Source: Bacteroides fragilis NCTC 9343
GTDB lineage: Bacteria > Bacteroidota > Bacteroidia > Bacteroidales > Bacteroidaceae
DNA: 64,000 nucleotides
Direction of reading: 5' to 3'
Assembly: GCF_000025985.1 (NCBI RefSeq)
Contig: NC_003228.3
Span: 3,968,001 to 4,032,000 of the forward strand
In this document: positions 54,354-64,000 of the stretch, one piece after another
How the letters are laid out: every line of letters starts with the position of its first letter
Numbering within the stretch: the stretch's first letter is position 1
The notes under the pieces: generated by a model
What the model was told of the DNA's origin: nothing
The model's input: the letters and a program-made list of their open reading frames with translations, nothing else
The model's database searches: none
Program-made: the position numbers and the translations under genes

Positions 54354-54893
54354 ATGATTTTAAATAACGAGTCTAATAAGAAGAAGAAATTTGAGCAGTT
54401 TTTCATTATGACTTATCCCAAAGTCAAAGCGTTTGCATGGAAATTGTTGAAGTCAGAAGAAGATGCAGAAGATATAGCCCAGGATATATTCGCAAAACTA
54501 TGGACTAATCCTGAGATTTGGGAAAATCAGGAAACTTGGAACAGCTACATATATACTATGGTCCGCAACCATATCTATAACTTTCTAAAACATAAATCAA
54601 TCCGGCAGACCTATCAGGAGCAATGCACAAAAGAGGAGCCGGCTATATCCGAAACTGACATTCACGATCAACTTTATGCCAAGGAAAGTGAACTTCTGAT
54701 AAAACTTACGATTGCCAATATGCCCGAACAGAGGAGGAAAATCTTCCGAATGAGCCGGACACAGGAAAAAAGTAATCAGGAAATCGCCGACGAGCTGAAT
54801 ATTTCGATCCGCACTGTAGAGCGCCACATCTATTTGGCACTAATCGATTTAAAAAAAGTACTCCTCACCCTATTTTTTTTCTATCTCGGTTGA
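54354..54893 (+). CDS. ECF sigma-70 family sigma factor (PUL regulator)
   Basis: This 179-residue sigma factor has region 2 (about 10-80, VKAFAWKLLKSEEDAEDIAQDIFAKLW) and region 4 (about 120-175, RTQEKSNQEIADELNISIRTVERHI). It is part of a sigma/anti-sigma switch that turns on a SusC/SusD transporter in response to a glycan felt by SusC. It is followed by the FecR-type anti-sigma gene, 46 bases later, then by susC. In the B. fragilis don locus the same gene order is known. Confidence 0.92.
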   Translation: MILNNESNKKKKFEQFFIMTYPKVKAFAWKLLKSEEDAEDIAQDIFAKLWTNPEIWENQETWNSYIYTMVRNHIYNFLKHKSIRQTYQEQCTKEEPAISETDIHDQLYAKESELLIKLTIANMPEQRRKIFRMSRTQEKSNQEIADELNISIRTVERHIYLALIDLKKVLLTLFFFYLG

Positions 54894-54939: not shown

Positions 54940-55929
54940 ATGAAGAATTATATTCAGAGAATCATCCGTTTGTTTGCCACCTCCGACCCCGACCCAAAGC
55001 TCACCGGAGAGATCCACCGATGGCTGCTCGATCAGGAGCATGCCGGGGAAAAGGAGACGGCACTGCACGATTTATGGAACGAAACGGAAGGAAAGGTGGA
55101 CAAAACTACCTGGGATTCTCTTGCATCGGTATATACCAAAGTCGGAGCCAACTCCGGGGACAGACATCAGCCACGTATCCGTTTCGCACATTATGCGGCT
55201 GCCATAGCGTTGCTGATCGTATCAGTTTCGGTCACTTTTCAAATGACCAAACAGCACTTTGCCGAAGCTCCCCTTATTGAAAACATAACACCGGACGGAC
55301 GACTGAGCAGCCTTCGTCTTCCGGACGGCAGCATAGTACAAACCAACTCGGGCAGTATCTTGCTCTACCCCGAAAAGTTTAAAGGTGAAACCCGCACAGT
55401 TTACCTAATCGGTGAGGCCAACTTCAAAGTAAAGAAAAACTCCGGTCAGCCATTCATTGTCAGATCGGGTACCATGTCGGTGACAGCCTTGGGCACTGAG
55501 TTCAATGTCGCTGCTTATCCGGAAGAGAACGAAATGATTGCAACTTTGATCCATGGAAAAATAAAAGTGGAATGCGACAATGGGAAAGAGAGTTATATCG
55601 TCACTCCCGGACAACAGGTCACTTATCGTAAAAGTACGGGAGAAAGCCGGCTCGCCGAAGCAAACATCGAAGACGTAACAGCCTGGCAAAAAGGAATGTA
55701 CGTATTCAGAGGCGTCACCATGTCAGAAATCCTGAACGAGCTGGAAAGACGCTATGCAGTCACCTTCCAGTATAACGCCAATTTATTTAATGATGATAAA
55801 TTCAACTTCCGTTTTCGTGAAAAATCCACTTTGGAAGATATCCTGAACATTATGCAAGAAGTTGTGGGAGGATTCAGTCATGAACTGAAGGGAAATATAT
55901 GTTATATAAAACCGGAGACAAAAAAATAA
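54940..55929 (+). CDS. FecR-family anti-sigma factor
   Basis: This 329-residue protein has a cytosolic N-terminal part (1-80) that binds the sigma factor, one membrane helix (about 84-101), and a periplasmic FecR domain (about 120-210, with LPDGSIVQTNSGS and the GEANFKVKKN pattern). A C-terminal STN-like/DUF4974-type region (about 245-325) meets the signalling domain of SusC. Signal from the SusC N-terminal domain would release the sigma factor. It follows the ECF gene and precedes susC with a 180-base leader. Confidence 0.93.
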   Translation: MKNYIQRIIRLFATSDPDPKLTGEIHRWLLDQEHAGEKETALHDLWNETEGKVDKTTWDSLASVYTKVGANSGDRHQPRIRFAHYAAAIALLIVSVSVTFQMTKQHFAEAPLIENITPDGRLSSLRLPDGSIVQTNSGSILLYPEKFKGETRTVYLIGEANFKVKKNSGQPFIVRSGTMSVTALGTEFNVAAYPEENEMIATLIHGKIKVECDNGKESYIVTPGQQVTYRKSTGESRLAEANIEDVTAWQKGMYVFRGVTMSEILNELERRYAVTFQYNANLFNDDKFNFRFREKSTLEDILNIMQEVVGGFSHELKGNICYIKPETKK

Positions 55930-55980
55930 AATGATTTAATATATTGATTTGTTTAACCTTAAAAACAATTGTTTAGTATG

Positions 55981-56067
55981 TAAAAAAGTATCCGGAAAGA
56001 GGCGGCCACCTGATTCCGGATATGAAATCTGAATTCTTTGCGTTAAAGCTTATGCTTTACTTTTTGG
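55981..56067 (-). ncRNA. Candidate antisense RNA to the susC leader (DonS-like)
   Basis: The minus strand has a strong intrinsic terminator: TATCCGGAA (56022-56014) pairs with TTCCGGATA (55997-55989), with a run of six T after it (55987-55982). Upstream on that strand, TTTG (56105-56102) and TAATATTT (56080-56073) form an imperfect promoter. An RNA from about 56067 to 55982 would be 80-90 bases and fully antisense to the susC leader. From memory, B. fragilis has a cis-antisense RNA called DonS, of about this size, that represses the don PUL. The terminator is seen; the RNA start is inferred. Confidence 0.65.
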
Positions 56068-56109
56068 GAAATAAATATTATGATTTAACACTAAAATTCG
56101 TTCAAATCT

Positions 56110-59100
56110 ATGAATTTTTATCGATTAAAGTCTATTTTTTTTATAATTTTTAGCTGTTTTATTCTACAAACGGCTGCCTTTGCTCAAAACAACGTAAAAA
56201 TAACAATCAAGAAAAAGAATATCACGTTGCAGGAAGCATTGCGGGAGGTTGAGAAACAATCTGATTATCTGATCGCTTTCAACGAATCCAAACTTGAGAA
56301 AACCAAGCGCGTTAACCTGAATATTAATGCTGAATCTCTGGATAAGACACTGGCTTCTATCCTGTCCGGAACGGGGCTTTCCTACAAAATCAAAGACAAA
56401 TATATCATGATTATTCCGCAATCAAAAGTGGAAGTCGAAAGCAAAAAACTGTCGGGGATAGTGAAAGATGACAAAGGAGATCCCTTGATCGGAGTCAACG
56501 TCTCCTTCAAAGGCAGCCCCACAGGAACCGTCACCGGTCTTGACGGACGATTTTCCATTCTGGCTGCCAAAGGAAATATCATTGAATTCTCCTACGTAGG
56601 CTATACCACCCAATATATTACAGTGGGCGATGCTTCTTCGCTAACTGTCGTATTGGAAGAAGACGCCAAGGCACTGGACGAAGTAGTTGTTACCGCACTG
56701 GGTATCAAACGTGCGGAAAAGGCATTGAGTTATAGTGTTCAGCAGGTAAAATCGGATGCTATCAACGATGTGAAAGATGCCAACTTCGTGAACGGATTGA
56801 CCGGGAAAGTTGCAGGTGTATCCATCAACCGGAGTTCCTCGGGCATCGGCGGGGCGACCCGTGTTGTCATGCGCGGAGCCAAGTCTATCGTAGGAAACAA
56901 TAATGTGCTCTACGTGGTGGACGGTATGCCTATCGGCAACCCTTCAAAAGGCGAAATCAACAATGACTATAGCACTCCGGGAGGAGGTGAAGGTATTTCC
57001 GACTTCAACCCGGAGGACATCGAAAGTCTATCGATACTGACAGGTCCGGCCGCCGCAGCCCTGTATGGTTCATCGGCAGCCAACGGTGTTATCCTGATTA
57101 ACACCAAGAAAGGGCAGGAAGGCAAACTGAAAATCTCGATCTCCAACAATACGGAGTTTATGACCCCGTATGTAATGCCGGAATTTCAAAATCGATACGG
57201 TAATGCAAAAGGATCATACAAGAGTTGGGGTGAGATGCTGCAACAGCCTTCAACGTTCCGCCCGAAAGACTTCTTCAAGACAGGAGCCAATATCATGAAT
57301 GCCGCCAATTTTTCAGTAGGAAACAAAAATAATCAAACGTTCGTATCGGTGGCAACAACAAACTCCACCGGCATCATTCCCAACAACGAATACTATCGTT
57401 ACAACTTCACATTACGCAACACCGCGAGTATGCTGAATGACAAACTCCATCTCGACCTGGGAGCCAGTTATGTTCTGCAGGGAGACCAGAATATGCTGTC
57501 GGCAGGGCGTTACTTTAATCCGCTGGTACCTCTGTATCTCTTTCCGCGGGGTGAAGATTTCGAAGCAGTCAAAGTGTACGAGCGCTATGACACCAACCGA
57601 AAATTCCCCATACAGGAATGGTCTTATGGCGATCAGGGCCTGAATCTGGAAAACCCGTACTGGATTGTGAACCGCGAAATGTTTGTTTCCAAAAAGAAAC
57701 GTTACATGTTTTATGCCAACGTAAAATACGATATTCTCAGTTGGCTGAACATAGCAGGACGTATACGTGTGGATAACACCAACACTACTTCCGAGCGCAA
57801 ATTACACGCTTCGACAATCAAGCTGCATGCCCAATCGGACAAAGGAGCCTACAACCGGAGCATGGAAGAATATCAGCAGACCTATGCGGATATTATGCTG
57901 AATGTGAACAAGAATTTCGGTAACTTCAACCTGACGGCAAATGCCGGATTCAGTTATGAAGATCACCTGACCACCGGCATGGGCATCGGAGGAAAACTGT
58001 TTACCGTCCCCAACCTGTTCTCTGCCTATAACTTCGATCCGGCTTCCGGACCCGGTTCGCAATCGCACACCCATACACGTAACAATTCGGTCTTTGTAAG
58101 CACCGAGCTGGGATATAAAAGCATGCTTTACCTCACACTTACCGGACGACAGGAATGGGCTTCCCAGTTAGTCAACTCTGACCAGCCCACCTATTTCTAT
58201 CCTTCTGTCGGAGTGTCGGGCGTAATCTCTGAGATGATAAGTCTGCCTAAATTTATTTCATTCTGGAAGATGAGAGCTTCCTTCGCCGAAGTAGGAGGAC
58301 CGATCAACTATACCGGATTGACTCCCGGAACTGTCACCGATCCCATGAAAGGCGGAGTCATCAATCCGATATCTGTCTATCCTTTCCCGAACTTCAAAGC
58401 AGAACAAACCAAATCGTATGAGTTGGGAACTAACCTGAGACTTTTCAACAACAAAATCAATATCGATGCCACGGTGTACCTGACAGATACCTACAACCAG
58501 ACCTTCCTTTCCAGCATGTCTCCTGCTTCGGGATACTCGGGCTTCTATGTACAGGCGGGTAAAGTGCGCAACAAAGGTATCGAACTGTCATTAGGCTATA
58601 ACGACCGGTTCGGAAAAGTGGGATATGCCACCAATCTGACTTATACAGCCAACCGAAATAAAATCATGAAGATGGTGCATGACTATAAGAACCCTTCGGA
58701 CGGTTCGCTGTTCAGCATCACTGAACTGACCCTGCAAGATAAGGGAGGAGTTTACCTGCGGGAAAAGGACGCCATCGGAGACGTATATGTAAAAGGCATC
58801 CTTGCCAGGGGCAAAGACGGTAAACTGATCGAAGAAGAAGGAGGATATAAAGTAGACCGCTCACAACGCATCAAGATAGGATCGGTCAATCCGGACTTCT
58901 CGATCGGCTGGAGACACAATGTCACCTGGAACAACATTACTCTGGACCTGCTGTTCAACGGACGTTTCGGGGGTATTGTCACTTCTTCCACCCAAGCATT
59001 CCTTGACGACTACGGTGTATCGAAAGACACTTATAAAGCGCGTCAGAACGGTGGTGTATGGGTGAACGGAACCCAATACGACGCGGAAAAATATTATACG

Positions 59101-59379
59101 ACCATCGGCGGCGAACAACTGATGGCATATTATGCATACAAAGCAACCAATATTCGTCTTCAAGAAGCCAGCCTGAGCTATACCCTACCGGGCAAATGGT
59201 TCGGAAATGTGATCAACCGGCTGACAGTTTCCGCCATCGGGCGCAATTTGTGGATGATCTATAATAAAGCCCCATTCGATCCGGAAATGACCTCTTCGAC
59301 AGGTACCTATAACCGGGGAGATGTCTTTATGCCACCCAGTTTGCGTAGTGTGGGATTTAGCGTGAAGATTGAATTATAA
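56110..59379 (+). CDS. SusC/RagA TonB-dependent outer membrane transporter with STN domain
   Basis: This 1089-residue protein has a signal peptide (to AAFAQ), an STN signalling domain (about 27-100, VKITIKKKNITLQEALREVE), a CarboxypepD-regulatory-like domain (about 115-195), a TonB box near LDEVVVTALGIKRAEKALSY, a plug domain (about 205-330) and a 22-strand barrel ending in FSVKIEL. It imports oligosaccharides across the outer membrane with TonB energy. The STN domain would contact the FecR anti-sigma factor, completing a trans-envelope switch with the upstream genes. It pairs with the next gene, SusD. In the known don locus the ligand is a complex N-glycan. Confidence 0.95.
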   Translation: MNFYRLKSIFFIIFSCFILQTAAFAQNNVKITIKKKNITLQEALREVEKQSDYLIAFNESKLEKTKRVNLNINAESLDKTLASILSGTGLSYKIKDKYIMIIPQSKVEVESKKLSGIVKDDKGDPLIGVNVSFKGSPTGTVTGLDGRFSILAAKGNIIEFSYVGYTTQYITVGDASSLTVVLEEDAKALDEVVVTALGIKRAEKALSYSVQQVKSDAINDVKDANFVNGLTGKVAGVSINRSSSGIGGATRVVMRGAKSIVGNNNVLYVVDGMPIGNPSKGEINNDYSTPGGGEGISDFNPEDIESLSILTGPAAAALYGSSAANGVILINTKKGQEGKLKISISNNTEFMTPYVMPEFQNRYGNAKGSYKSWGEMLQQPSTFRPKDFFKTGANIMNAANFSVGNKNNQTFVSVATTNSTGIIPNNEYYRYNFTLRNTASMLNDKLHLDLGASYVLQGDQNMLSAGRYFNPLVPLYLFPRGEDFEAVKVYERYDTNRKFPIQEWSYGDQGLNLENPYWIVNREMFVSKKKRYMFYANVKYDILSWLNIAGRIRVDNTNTTSERKLHASTIKLHAQSDKGAYNRSMEEYQQTYADIMLNVNKNFGNFNLTANAGFSYEDHLTTGMGIGGKLFTVPNLFSAYNFDPASGPGSQSHTHTRNNSVFVSTELGYKSMLYLTLTGRQEWASQLVNSDQPTYFYPSVGVSGVISEMISLPKFISFWKMRASFAEVGGPINYTGLTPGTVTDPMKGGVINPISVYPFPNFKAEQTKSYELGTNLRLFNNKINIDATVYLTDTYNQTFLSSMSPASGYSGFYVQAGKVRNKGIELSLGYNDRFGKVGYATNLTYTANRNKIMKMVHDYKNPSDGSLFSITELTLQDKGGVYLREKDAIGDVYVKGILARGKDGKLIEEEGGYKVDRSQRIKIGSVNPDFSIGWRHNVTWNNITLDLLFNGRFGGIVTSSTQAFLDDYGVSKDTYKARQNGGVWVNGTQYDAEKYYTTIGGEQLMAYYAYKATNIRLQEASLSYTLPGKWFGNVINRLTVSAIGRNLWMIYNKAPFDPEMTSSTGTYNRGDVFMPPSLRSVGFSVKIEL

Positions 59380-59399: not shown

Positions 59400-61028
59400 A
59401 TGAAATTAAATAAAGTAAAGAATATGTGGAGAACTCTATCGGTCATAGCCCTCTTGGGTTCAACACTATGCACCTCGTGTATATCCGAAGATATCAACCG
59501 GAACCCGTTGCTTCCGACGAAAGAAGATGAAAAGATGGACGGAGTTATTTACGGAGCCTACCTGCCCAATCTTGAAAAAAGTGTAATCCCCATCGGCACC
59601 GCTTCAGAAAGTACAGAACCGGTAAACCGCTATCAGATCGGAGTAAATCTGGCCGGTGACGCCTGGGCGGGATACATGTCTCCCCGAGACAACAAATTCA
59701 ACGGCAGCAAGAATTTCACCAACTATTTCATGTACGAAAACTGGGTGAACTATGTGTATTCTTTTATGGTGACGGATGTATATTCGCCATGGATGCAGAT
59801 AAAACGCATCTCGCAGGATGAAGGGACAAGAAATGACGAGATTTATGCCTTGGCCCAGATCATCAAGATCGCGGCACTGCACCGCACTACGGATATGTTC
59901 GGCCCGATTCCCTACTCACAAGTGGGCAAAGGTTCTTTTAAAGTGGCATACGACTCTCAGGAAAGCGTATACCGCTCTTTTCTGAAAGAACTGGAAGAGG
60001 CTGTCCAAACCCTGGACGATTACTCGAATAAGAGCAAAGAAGTATTGCCTGCCTTCGACATTGTTTATAACGGCGATGTCAATAAATGGATGCGCTTTGC
60101 CAATTCGCTGATGCTCCGCCTGGCCATCCGTGTCCGTTTTGCCGATGCGGGACTCGCCAAAGAATATGCGGAGAAAGCCGTGAAGCATCCCGCAGGCCTG
60201 ATCAACAGTAAAGAACTGGCAGCCCAGATGGGTAAAGGAGCCGGCCTGCAGATGAAGAATCCGCTGAAAGTGATCAACGAAGAATACAATGACACCCGTA
60301 TGGGGGCCACCATCTATTCTTACCTGGCAGGATACAATGACGCCCGCGCTGCCGTATACTTTGTCAAAAACAATGGTTTCAAAGCCGTACGTTGCGGGAT
60401 CGCCAAGTCCGGAGACGCCTATAACGGATTCACACGCCCGAACGTGCATGAAGACGACCCTCTCTATTGGATGAAAGCATCCGAAGTATGCTTCTTGAAA
60501 GCCGAAGGGGCACTGGCCGGATTCGATATGGGCGGCAGTGCCGGCGACTTCTACAACGCAGGCATCCGCATGTCGTTCAGTGAGAATGGACTGGACAATT
60601 CGTCGGCCGAAACCTATCTGAAAGACTCCACCCGCAAACCGGCCAACTACACCGATACCTCCAACGGCGAGTTGAGCGCCAATGCTCCGAGCAGCATCAC
60701 CATCCGTTGGGAAAACGGAGCTACGGAAGAAGAAAAGCTGGAACGTATCATCACTCAAAAATATCTCGCCATCTTCCCCAACGGTCAAGAGGCATGGACC
60801 GAGTGGAGACGTACCGGATATCCCCGCCAAATAGTCGTTGCCGAAAATAAAACGAACTCCGCAGTATTGATCGGAAACGGATACGACCTGGGAGGCGTAA
60901 GGAGACTGCCCTATCCCCGCACCGAATATGAACAAAACGGCGAAAACCTCCACAACGCCATCAGCCAGTATTTGGGAGGAGTAGACAATGCTGCCACCAA
61001 AGTATGGTGGGACAAAAAAAGCAAATAA
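59400..61028 (+). CDS. SusD/RagB-family surface glycan-binding lipoprotein
   Basis: This 542-residue lipoprotein has a signal peptide ending in LCTSC (lipid at Cys24 or Cys27) and a TPR-helical core of SusD type, with the conserved LRLAIRVRFADAGLAKEYAEK pattern and the C-terminal EAWTEWRRTGYPRQ. It caps the SusC barrel at the cell surface and hands glycan to it. It resembles the SusD-like_2 group. It lies 20 bases after susC and forms part of the same operon. Confidence 0.93.
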   Translation: MKLNKVKNMWRTLSVIALLGSTLCTSCISEDINRNPLLPTKEDEKMDGVIYGAYLPNLEKSVIPIGTASESTEPVNRYQIGVNLAGDAWAGYMSPRDNKFNGSKNFTNYFMYENWVNYVYSFMVTDVYSPWMQIKRISQDEGTRNDEIYALAQIIKIAALHRTTDMFGPIPYSQVGKGSFKVAYDSQESVYRSFLKELEEAVQTLDDYSNKSKEVLPAFDIVYNGDVNKWMRFANSLMLRLAIRVRFADAGLAKEYAEKAVKHPAGLINSKELAAQMGKGAGLQMKNPLKVINEEYNDTRMGATIYSYLAGYNDARAAVYFVKNNGFKAVRCGIAKSGDAYNGFTRPNVHEDDPLYWMKASEVCFLKAEGALAGFDMGGSAGDFYNAGIRMSFSENGLDNSSAETYLKDSTRKPANYTDTSNGELSANAPSSITIRWENGATEEEKLERIITQKYLAIFPNGQEAWTEWRRTGYPRQIVVAENKTNSAVLIGNGYDLGGVRRLPYPRTEYEQNGENLHNAISQYLGGVDNAATKVWWDKKSK

Positions 61029-61053: not shown

Positions 61054-62100
61054 ATGAATATGAGAAATACCATTTTTACATTTATCGGAGTAGCATTGTT
61101 GGTAGGCTTCGTCGCATGCGATGACTGGACCTCACCGGAGAAACTCGATGTAGAAAACGAAGCAGTGGGTGACCTTTACTCCAAACGCGACTCCATCAAG
61201 TGGGCCGAAGAAGAAAAAAGGCATAAAGAGAACGAAGCTGCCTACGAAAAATACCTGGAGAACCTGAGAGCTTACAAAAGCACCAAGCACCCCATTATGT
61301 TCGGGTGGTTCAATGCCTGGCAACCGGACGGAGCGGGAAAATATCCCCGCCTGTCTCTTTTGCCGGACAGCATGGATGTTGTTTCGATATGGGGAAACTG
61401 GCACTCTCTGAGCGAAGAAAAAATCAAAGAGTTGCGGAGCGTACAGGCCAAAGGAACCAAAGTCATTATCGGCTGGATTATAGAAGATATAGGCGACCAG
61501 ATAAAATGGGGACGCGACCAATGGCCCGCCGATGATACTCAAGCCATCAAAGAGTATGCGCAAGCCATCGTAGACACAATCAACAAATACGGCTACGACG
61601 GATTCGATTATGACTATGAGCCGTCATACGCATCACCGTTCAAGCCGGGCAACCATTGCGGCAATTTGACTTCTTGCTCACGCGATTATAATAAAGAGAA
61701 AGAAATCTTGTTTATGAAGACCATGCGCGAGCTGCTGGGCCCGGACAAACTGTTTCATCTGAACGGCTCTATCCACTGGCTGGACCCGCGTGCGGCACAG
61801 TATTTCGACCGTTTTGTCGTTCAATCTTACAACGGATCGGCTTCCAGTTTTGAGAGATGGACCAATGATATCCAAAACCGGTTGAATATCAAACCCGAAC
61901 AGCTCGTATTTACGGAAAGCTTTCAGAACAAGCCCGGTGCACGAAGCAGATTCCCGGGTACATACGCCGGTTACGTGGCTTCCAAACAAGGCAATGTGGG
62001 AGGAATCGGAGTCTTTCATATTAATGAAGACGCATTTGAAGACGAAGCCTATGTTAACATCAGAAAGGCCATCTCTATCATGAATCCTCCCGTAAAATAA
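61054..62100 (+). CDS. GH18 endo-beta-N-acetylglucosaminidase lipoprotein
   Basis: This 348-residue surface lipoprotein (signal peptide ending VAC, Cys22) has the glycoside hydrolase 18 signature DGFDYDYE at residues 182-189, with catalytic acid Glu189 and Asp187 assisting. Endoglycosidases of this type cut the chitobiose core of N-glycans, freeing the sugar chain from a glycoprotein. The order SusC, SusD, GH18 in one operon supports cutting at the cell surface followed by uptake. The type of N-glycan (complex or high-mannose) is inferred from the locus comparison only. Confidence 0.92.
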   Translation: MNMRNTIFTFIGVALLVGFVACDDWTSPEKLDVENEAVGDLYSKRDSIKWAEEEKRHKENEAAYEKYLENLRAYKSTKHPIMFGWFNAWQPDGAGKYPRLSLLPDSMDVVSIWGNWHSLSEEKIKELRSVQAKGTKVIIGWIIEDIGDQIKWGRDQWPADDTQAIKEYAQAIVDTINKYGYDGFDYDYEPSYASPFKPGNHCGNLTSCSRDYNKEKEILFMKTMRELLGPDKLFHLNGSIHWLDPRAAQYFDRFVVQSYNGSASSFERWTNDIQNRLNIKPEQLVFTESFQNKPGARSRFPGTYAGYVASKQGNVGGIGVFHINEDAFEDEAYVNIRKAISIMNPPVK

Positions 62101-62123: not shown

Positions 62124-63305
62124 ATGAAATGTAACGTATCTTACAAATATCTGTTTATTGCGATCGGCATACTTTGCCCGCTCTTTTCCGCCTGTGACTA
62201 TGCCGACGGAGAAGGTTCAGGCTCGGAAAACGCAGTATACATGGAAACACCCGATAATAAAGGCATCGTCAACTTCACTTTAGAGCCCGATGGCGGAATA
62301 ACCTATCTGACACCCCGGCTGGCCAATATCAGCCAAAGCCCGGTGACTATACAAGTGGGTTATGACAAAGAGGCCTTGGATAAATACAACAAGGACAACG
62401 GGGCCTCGTATGAACCCCTTCCCCCCTCCGCTTTTAAACTGGCAGATGCAGAGGGAAACGAGCTATCCGCCTCCGAAGGCATACGGGTACCCGCCGGTGA
62501 CTTTTCAGCAAAAATAATGGTGAAAGTAGGACAACTGAATTCCAAGGATTTCCCCGACAGTAAGAAATACGCCATTCCCCTGAGCATCACGGGTGCTTCC
62601 AACTATTCGCTGATTCCCTCACAACGCAGCGCGATCTTGCTCCTGAATCGTTCCATCCTTTCGTCGGTAGCCAAAGTCAGCGGTGGAGAAGGCATCCGGA
62701 TAAAACCTGTCGGAATGCACACAAAGGCCGAATGGACCATTCAAATGAGCGCCATCTATTCCAGCCTGACCCGAAGCAACCTGACCACAGCCTATCTAAG
62801 CAACGGAACAGGAGGAGCATTCTATACCCGCATTTCATCTACTGCCGGCATACAAGTGAAAAACGGACGCGACGGGGACGACACATGGACTCAAATGCCT
62901 CTGCAAGCGGGTAAATGGCTGCATATCACCTATGTGCACAAGGATAAGAAAACGACAGTCTATGTCAACGGAAAGGTCCAGAAGGTCTTTGAGAACAGTG
63001 CCATCACCTTTGGCGAGAACAGCATGATCGTAGTCGGAAACTCCGGTTACCGTAACGACTATCTTCGCGAGATACGTTTATGGGACAAGGCGCTGACAGA
63101 GTCGGAAATCAACGATTACTTATACCTCCCGATGGACCCTGCAACCCCGCATCTCATTTCGTATCTGCCACTGAGCAAAGAGATGGAGACCAAAGACCTG
63201 AAAGCCCCCGCCGGTACGGAGAATGTAACCACGAAAGCCCGCATTGAATATGTGGAAAACGTTAAATTCCCGGCAGATGAATTAGTAATTGTAAATCAAG
63301 AATAA
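62124..63305 (+). CDS. DUF1735 and LamG-like domain lipoprotein
   Basis: This 393-residue protein has a lipobox (FSAC, Cys24), a DUF1735 domain (about 35-175, with VTIQVGYDKEALDKYNKDNG and IPLSITGASNYSLIPS) and a C-terminal LamG/concanavalin-like domain (about 190-375, LQAGKWLHITYVHKDKKTTV). Proteins of this kind in PULs are surface glycan-binding lipoproteins. It lies 23 bases after the GH18 gene and belongs to the operon. Confidence 0.88.
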   Translation: MKCNVSYKYLFIAIGILCPLFSACDYADGEGSGSENAVYMETPDNKGIVNFTLEPDGGITYLTPRLANISQSPVTIQVGYDKEALDKYNKDNGASYEPLPPSAFKLADAEGNELSASEGIRVPAGDFSAKIMVKVGQLNSKDFPDSKKYAIPLSITGASNYSLIPSQRSAILLLNRSILSSVAKVSGGEGIRIKPVGMHTKAEWTIQMSAIYSSLTRSNLTTAYLSNGTGGAFYTRISSTAGIQVKNGRDGDDTWTQMPLQAGKWLHITYVHKDKKTTVYVNGKVQKVFENSAITFGENSMIVVGNSGYRNDYLREIRLWDKALTESEINDYLYLPMDPATPHLISYLPLSKEMETKDLKAPAGTENVTTKARIEYVENVKFPADELVIVNQE

Positions 63306-63317
63306 AAGGAATTCAAA

Positions 63318-64000
63318 ATGAAAAGAAGAATAAAATCCGCCCAAAGCATTTTATGGGTTCTATTACTCATTTTGTCAGCATCGTGCAGTAAAGACGAAAT
63401 ACAGATCGTAGATCAGGATACAAGTTGGCAAATGGACAATAAGTATATCGAAGAAGATATCCGTGAGCAACTCGGCATCGATCCGTTCACAGATCTGGTG
63501 TACCTGGGATATTACGGCAATCCTTATACACAGTTGGAGGCAATCAACGACCTGGTAAATACCACACTGGTGGGAAAGAACGAACTTTCGTTCAAAGTAA
63601 AAGTGACGAAGCCTTACAAAGAAGATATCAAAGTCAATCTTATGAAAGAAGACAAACTGGTAACCGATTTTCCAGAGATGGCGGAGGGAATACCTCTTTT
63701 TCCGAGCGAAAACTGCACCTTTGAAGGCGGTGTGCTGAAAGCCGGCGAACTGGAAACAACGGTGAAACTGACCCTCAAGGATGTTGAGAAGTTAAACAAC
63801 CTATCGGGTTATGTGATGGCCATAAAGCTGACGATGGAAGGATCGCATGAACATTTGGCCATCGCCCGAACCCGCTCGTCATACTTTGTGAAACTAAATC
63901 TTTCTATACGCCTGGACAATATCGATTCAAGCAATAAAAAGATCGAAGGAAAAGGATTCAACAAAGAAATCAGTTTTAAATCGGACATACGCCCGGATAA
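63318..64000 (+). CDS. DUF1735 domain lipoprotein, 3' end cut by the window
   Basis: The frame begins MKRRIKSAQSILWVLLLILS and has a lipobox ending in ASC (Cys23). The 227 residues visible include a DUF1735-like domain (about 70-185, LSFKVKVTKPYKEDI and VMAIKLTMEGSHEH). It is a further surface glycan-binding lipoprotein of the operon, 12 bases after the previous gene. The C-terminal part lies beyond base 64000. Confidence 0.85.
   Translation, partial: MKRRIKSAQSILWVLLLILSASCSKDEIQIVDQDTSWQMDNKYIEEDIREQLGIDPFTDLVYLGYYGNPYTQLEAINDLVNTTLVGKNELSFKVKVTKPYKEDIKVNLMKEDKLVTDFPEMAEGIPLFPSENCTFEGGVLKAGELETTVKLTLKDVEKLNNLSGYVMAIKLTMEGSHEHLAIARTRSSYFVKLNLSIRLDNIDSSNKKIEGKGFNKEISFKSDIRPD

Follow-up and report, generated by a model that had tools for sequence, protein, structure and literature searches.

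A predicted cis-antisense RNA opposite the susC leader of an N-glycan-type PUL in Bacteroides fragilis, most probably DonS or its strain allele

Introduction

The question raised by this locus is whether the minus strand opposite the susC leader of a Bacteroides fragilis PUL encodes a small RNA and, if so, whether that RNA is DonS. According to passages of three papers, DonS represses its PUL, don, in B. fragilis, or has been validated as doing so (PMC7366714, PMC11697453, PMC10994844). DonS and the PUL-associated cis-antisense RNAs are those of Cao et al. (2016), taken here as these passages describe them. A length of 78–128 nt is given for the DonS family (PMC7366714), and the mechanism of DonS was called unknown in passages from both 2020 (PMC7366714) and 2025 (PMC11697453). 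Our approach was to locate the predicted ends of the RNA, its promoter and its structure, and to compare the leader with those of related loci in the same and other genomes. We conclude that a gene for a small repressor RNA very probably lies on the minus strand opposite the susC leader.

Materials and Methods

Two contigs make up the genome; together they hold 5,241,700 bases, and 5,205,140 of these are in the larger one. The window, the whole 64,000-nucleotide stretch that was analysed, is G000:C1:3968001-4032000; unless a locus is named, positions are those of the window.

For the comparison across genomes, 61 leader matches were listed and 43 loci were aligned (23 plus 20 more). One locus with a cut leader (L050) was left out, giving 42 leaders, 41 of which are distinct over the antisense region. 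The remaining 18 matches were mostly short or partial; those in genomes G073 and G108 are among them and overlap the hairpin described below. For the comparison within the genome, the first 25 of the 40 FecR_C matches listed were taken; the other 15 lie in ORFs of 861–1157 aa (14 matches) and in one ORF of 294 aa. Two of the 25 loci had no downstream ORF and four had a leader shorter than 100 nt, which left 19. The assignment of the next gene as susC in these 19 loci was made by eye from the N-termini.

Results

The locus is an N-glycan-type PUL

The features of the locus are listed in Table 1. Its make-up, with genes for an ECF sigma factor, a FecR-type anti-sigma factor, SusC and SusD homologues, a GH18 enzyme and two proteins with BT_3987-like N-terminal domains, is that of an N-glycan-type PUL. 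The susC leader runs from the fecR stop at 55929 to the ATG at 56110 and has the 180 bases originally ascribed to it.

Table 1 Features of the locus in window coordinates
Feature	Position	Strand	Evidence or remark
ECF sigma factor gene	54354..54893	+	PF08281, PF04542; TIGR02985
FecR-type anti-sigma factor gene	54940..55929	+	PF04773, PF16344
Candidate susC sense promoter, TTTAACCTTAAAAA ... TATG	55952..55980	+	Conserved in near orthologues
Predicted DonS-type antisense RNA, about 116 nt	55982..~56097	-	Start: box and P1; end: terminator and T-run
T-run of terminator	55982..55987	-	Sequence; at least 5 Ts in aligned rows
Terminator hairpin, 9-bp outer stem	55989..56022	-	Stem pairing and fold; present in 41/41 aligned rows
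Helix P1, 3' strand	56035..56047	-	Pairs with 56084-56096
Helix P1, 5' strand	56084..56096	-	Pairs with 56035-56047
-7 box TAGATTTG	56103..56110	-	Adjoins susC start codon; at most 1 mismatch to TAnnTTTG
susC homologue, predicted RNA opposite its leader	56110..59379	+	TIGR04056, 657.6 bits
susD homologue	59400..61028	+	PF12741
GH18 endo-beta-N-acetylglucosaminidase-like gene	61054..62100	+	PF16141, 147.6 bits
BT_3987-like N-terminal and laminin-G-like domain protein	62124..63305	+	PF08522, PF13385
BT_3987-like N-terminal domain protein, open at window end	63318..63998	+	PF08522

The candidate sense promoter of susC consists of TTTAACCTTAAAAA at 55952-55965 and TATG at 55977-55980. A regular expression for it matched 8 of the 19 leaders in this genome (1.2 expected) and 13 of the 42 relatives (3.0 expected), and several sigma/anti-sigma PULs (L058-L082) share a motif of the form TTAAC(C)TTAAA ... 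TATG ahead of susC. In the window the sense transcript is predicted to start at about 55985-55990. The motif is possibly an ECF promoter, recognised by the sigma factor that each such PUL encodes, a lead to be set beside two published statements: a passage from 2020 has it that no motif was known for the ECF sigma factors of B. thetaiotaomicron (PMC7366714), and in another source two of these factors are linked to a different -30/-10 motif (PMC12596196).

The minus strand carries a terminator hairpin

On the minus strand, TATCCGGAA (56022-56014) and TTCCGGATA (55997-55989) form a perfect 9-pair stem, followed on its 3' side by one C and then six Ts (55988-55982), just as the original prediction of a 9-base stem and a T-run had it. 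The minus strand from 56075 to 55975 folds at -24.1 kcal/mol (z -3.7), a value equalled by 0 of 200 shuffles. A simple terminator scan, with a loop limit of 8 bases, did not report the 55989-56022 hairpin. The hairpin is a near palindrome and folds on either strand. A plus-strand terminator after fecR was rejected, as the plus strand has no T-run 3' of the hairpin.

The case that the hairpin is beyond chance rests mainly on the comparison across leaders. With the leader as DNA query, matches at E <= 0.01, many of them short, were found in 36 of 149 genomes of the genus, the source genome being one of the 36, and matches of at least 144 bases in 15 of the 149, with several genomes matching at multiple places. 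In B. fragilis Q1F2 the anti-sigma gene is 93% identical and the leader 96% identical. The CCGG hairpin has been kept in all 41 distinct leaders aligned, as have five or more minus-strand Ts. This conservation is partly built in, because the rows were picked for their likeness to the window leader and in many cases for the hairpin core by itself. The -7 box and helix P1 are more telling, because both lie outside the hairpin core used to choose the rows.

A -7 promoter box at the susC start codon places the predicted RNA start near 56097

The sequence TAnnTTTG is given as the Bacteroides -7 consensus in passages of PMC7366714. With at most one mismatch, it was present on the minus strand of all 42 leaders, always at the same aligned position, and it was perfect in 25. 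In the window, TAGATTTG at 56110-56103 is the only minus-strand TAnnTTTG with 0–1 mismatch for box tops from 55996 to 56180. Where the box touches the start codon, the A of the start codon is one base of the box. That the box is a mere translation signal was rejected: in 5 of 23 leaders its aligned position, unchanged, falls inside the coding sequence, the start codons there being ATGs chosen by a script. The -33 TTTG box was not conserved, being found at 1 of 13 own-genome box loci when spacings of 12–29 were scanned.

Because the RNA is taken to begin 5–8 bases past the -7 box, its start is placed at about 56097. The RNA should also extend to 56096, because the 5' strand of helix P1 runs that far. 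So bounded, the antisense RNA (56097-55982) is predicted to span nearly the whole susC leader, save the dozen bases next to the AUG; it folds at -27.5 kcal/mol (z -3.9). Its predicted 116 nt lie within the 78–128 nt of the DonS family.

The original prediction had proposed an RNA of 80–90 bases starting at 56060–56075, and had named a start far outside that interval as evidence against itself. These boundaries were not supported: the only -7 box with its top between 55996 and 56180 is at 56110-56103, the conserved pairing extends to 56096, and the predicted start near 56097 would count against that model. An RNA of about 86 nt from near 56067, with a promoter at about 56060–56100, would end at the identical terminator and would also fit the published length range. 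However, no TAnnTTTG with 0–1 mismatch suits a start at 56067, and such a start does not fit, because P1 requires bases up to 56096 and would lose its 5' strand. We consider the shorter RNA very improbable. With the longer one, the RNA appears to be the known one with corrected boundaries, its predicted start lying about 30 bases beyond the earlier proposal and beside the susC start codon.

Helix P1 covaries as a helix of the predicted antisense RNA

Helix P1 has 13 pairs, 56096-56084 with 56047-56035, and 95.3% of its cells were paired in the 41 leaders. There were 408 Watson-Crick cells, 97 G-U cells (antisense strand), 4 A-C cells and 21 others; in 15 representatives under 75% identity the corresponding numbers were 143, 34, 3 and 13. 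P1 and the terminator together were paired in 95.4% of cells, compared with 36.8–51.5% in slid versions, and both sides had changed in 92 cells, compared with 2–28. In column shuffles, four of five measures stood out, each being reached by between 0 and 4 of the 500 shuffles. The fifth, a count of further pair types, was not set apart by within-column shuffling (207 of 500 as high). In 9 of 10 slides the slid controls, too, had more G-U than A-C, and part of this asymmetry is therefore due to composition. The G-U share of the non-Watson-Crick cells was 97 of 122 (80%) in register and 12–30% out of register. The window's own P1 holds an A-A mismatch. In many rows a small hairpin within P1 was noted by eye, and the alignment is out of register there.

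The conserved structure could instead be an element of the sense leader in the susC mRNA that acts as an attenuator or as a hairpin with a stabilising role, and there would then be no functional antisense RNA. The ability of the near-palindromic terminator hairpin to fold on both strands would agree with this, as would one closing pair that is U-G in the sense and C-A in the antisense RNA in 10 of 41 rows. The window leader itself is nearly a tie, with a sense fold of about -28.0 to -28.4 kcal/mol against -27.5 for the antisense. The wider comparison points the other way: P1 was paired in 95% of cells as antisense RNA vs 78% as sense RNA, the consensus fold of the aligned leaders was -22.5 kcal/mol for the antisense vs -8.2 for the sense, and the antisense fold was the better one in 41 of 41 aligned leaders and in 10 of 13 leaders from the own genome. 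The T-run and the -7 box, moreover, are meaningful on the minus strand only. A sense element without an antisense RNA thus has very little probability. Covariation in P1 implies selection on the predicted antisense RNA itself.

The same plan recurs at other loci of the genome

Read on the sense strand, the -7 box is CAAAnnTATG. This sequence was found at the start codon in 13 of the 19 FecR-downstream leaders and in 2 of 226 background ORFs, which have 200 aa or more and come from 20 stretches of the same genome, each 20 kb long, a difference with a Fisher P of 2e-15, in which related genes are non-independent draws. Because CAAAnnTATG occurs 313 times in the genome on both strands, it is unspecific when taken alone. 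The two background ORFs with the sequence at a candidate start lie in the L107:5985 and L121:709 regions (minus strand), and the second starts like a lipoprotein.

Box and antisense terminator occurred together in 12 of the 19 leaders, that is, in 12 of the 13 with a box. In the thirteenth (L059) a stem can be made out by eye, without a T-run. Among the six leaders without a perfect box, one (L079) has a terminator and a box with one mismatch, and the hairpin of another (L063) is weak (-8.2); nothing of the kind was found in the remaining four. The predicted RNAs of the 12 loci and L079 were cut at 78–121 nt, and all 13 fold with z between -2.2 and -6.4. Terminator loops that are often G- or C-rich within AT-rich RNAs were seen by eye in L060, L064, L065, L066, L075, L079 and L081; it is possible that such loops make the first pairing contacts.

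The plan is common to these RNAs and the sequence is not, because RNA model R1 finds just the window locus in its own genome at E <= 1 (150 of 4206 candidates scored). The model also gave a weak match to the plus strand at 55929-56024 (30.8 bits). Over 301 genomes of the family, with 11 candidates scored per listed genome and strict filters, there were 9 hits, in 2 of 30 genera. A match in another genus of the family was seen at G320:C1:974254-974385 (L095; 47.1 bits, E 0.002). Comparison of the leader with Rfam gave no family above its threshold and five matches below threshold.

The PUL in the window is the best candidate for don

The genome has two GH18 PULs of like make-up with PF16141, one in the window and the other at 1.57 Mb, and only the one in the window has the box and the antisense terminator. 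The second (L056, G000:C1:1566000-1582000) has a 310-base susC leader with neither. A search with PF00704 found no further GH18 above the cut-off; an enzyme of a different family could escape it. Because the other GH18 PUL lacks box and terminator and PF00704 gave no further match, we regard the PUL in the window as the best candidate for don. On these comparisons, the predicted RNA is most probably DonS or an allele of it in this strain.

The RNA could alternatively be a DonS-type RNA of a PUL other than don, that is, a new member of the family that works in the same way. Twelve other FecR-downstream leaders carry the same box and there is a second GH18 PUL; but that PUL is the one without box or antisense terminator, and PF00704 adds no other. 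An assignment to a different PUL is quite unlikely.

Discussion

Taken together, we think it likely that the RNA is the cis-antisense DonS, or its allele, of don, that it starts at the -7 box, that it has about 116 nt comprising P1 and the terminator, and that it represses susC. At its core, the original prediction set a cis-antisense RNA of the DonS type against susC in an N-glycan PUL. This core is supported by conservation, covariation, the -7 box and the terminator; the boundaries have found no support. The original prediction went as far as a likeness to DonS; the evidence suggests that the gene is that of DonS, in the same or in another strain, and so probably a rediscovery.

The following mechanism is proposed. 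Housekeeping RNA polymerase would start the antisense RNA at the -7 box, which reaches into the susC start codon; transcription would head away from susC for about 116 nt and terminate near the upstream edge of the leader. The RNA would fold into a 5' domain (P1) and a 3' terminator hairpin. As long as the anti-sigma factor keeps the sigma factor of the PUL bound, the antisense RNA would pair with stray susC leader RNA. Because it is complementary to nearly the whole susC leader, this pairing would block initiation of susC translation or expose the leader RNA to RNase III. Antisense transcription would additionally oppose the sense polymerase, which probably adds to the repression. Once sigma is released, strong sense transcription would cross the antisense promoter and flip the balance. 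One published observation counts against reading these RNAs as repressors: some antisense-PUL pairs in B. thetaiotaomicron are reported to be positively correlated (PMC10994844).

With two predicted promoters that face each other across about 120 bases, repression could also come from promoter collision alone, the antisense RNA being real but inert. The covarying helix speaks against inertness through the selection on the RNA that it implies, and the conservation of P1 argues that the predicted RNA itself matters. Repression by collision alone is in our judgement unlikely. Under the mechanism preferred here, in which the RNA itself takes part, the predicted 5' end, helix and promoter at about a dozen loci offer exact targets for separating pairing from opposing transcription. 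The plan of box and terminator also provides a sequence rule by which such RNAs may be predicted without RNA-seq.

A broader reading is offered tentatively, as possible but still doubtful. FecI/FecR-type PULs may carry a mirror circuit, in which the susC start codon sits in the -7 box of an opposing housekeeping promoter and a structured antisense RNA is complementary to the leader. As part of this reading, the antisense RNA would end at, or within about 40 nt of, the start of the sense mRNA, so that the two would be near-complete complements; and a 5' helix selected in the antisense only would point to a structured RNA, beyond mere opposing transcription. If true, the class would be set by its plan rather than by shared sequence, and the plan would constrain the first codons of susC.

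In its setting, the predicted RNA is like DonS: it lies in B. fragilis, opposite the susC homologue of an N-glycan-type PUL. Like the DonS family, it has its own terminator and a predicted length inside the published range. No tested feature differs from DonS as the cited passages describe it. No description of the start-codon box or of helix P1 was found in the passages searched, which came from PMC7366714, PMC10994844, PMC11697453, PMC12596196, PMC11180146, PMC5080379 and PMC5028390.

The other system for comparison is FopS of B. thetaiotaomicron, a paralogous sRNA family whose members have a terminator hairpin and are transcribed from a canonical -7 promoter; FopS represses susC of a high-mannose N-glycan PUL. 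Passages of the same paper describe FopS RNAs as about 65–70 nt long, with a single-stranded 5' seed, and as acting in trans near the start codon (PMC11697453). The predicted RNA shares its small size, the hairpin and the type of promoter with FopS. Unlike FopS, it has a predicted 116 nt, its 5' end lies in helix P1, and it is fully complementary in cis; neither a length of about 65–70 nt nor a single-stranded 5' stretch before the terminator is predicted for it.
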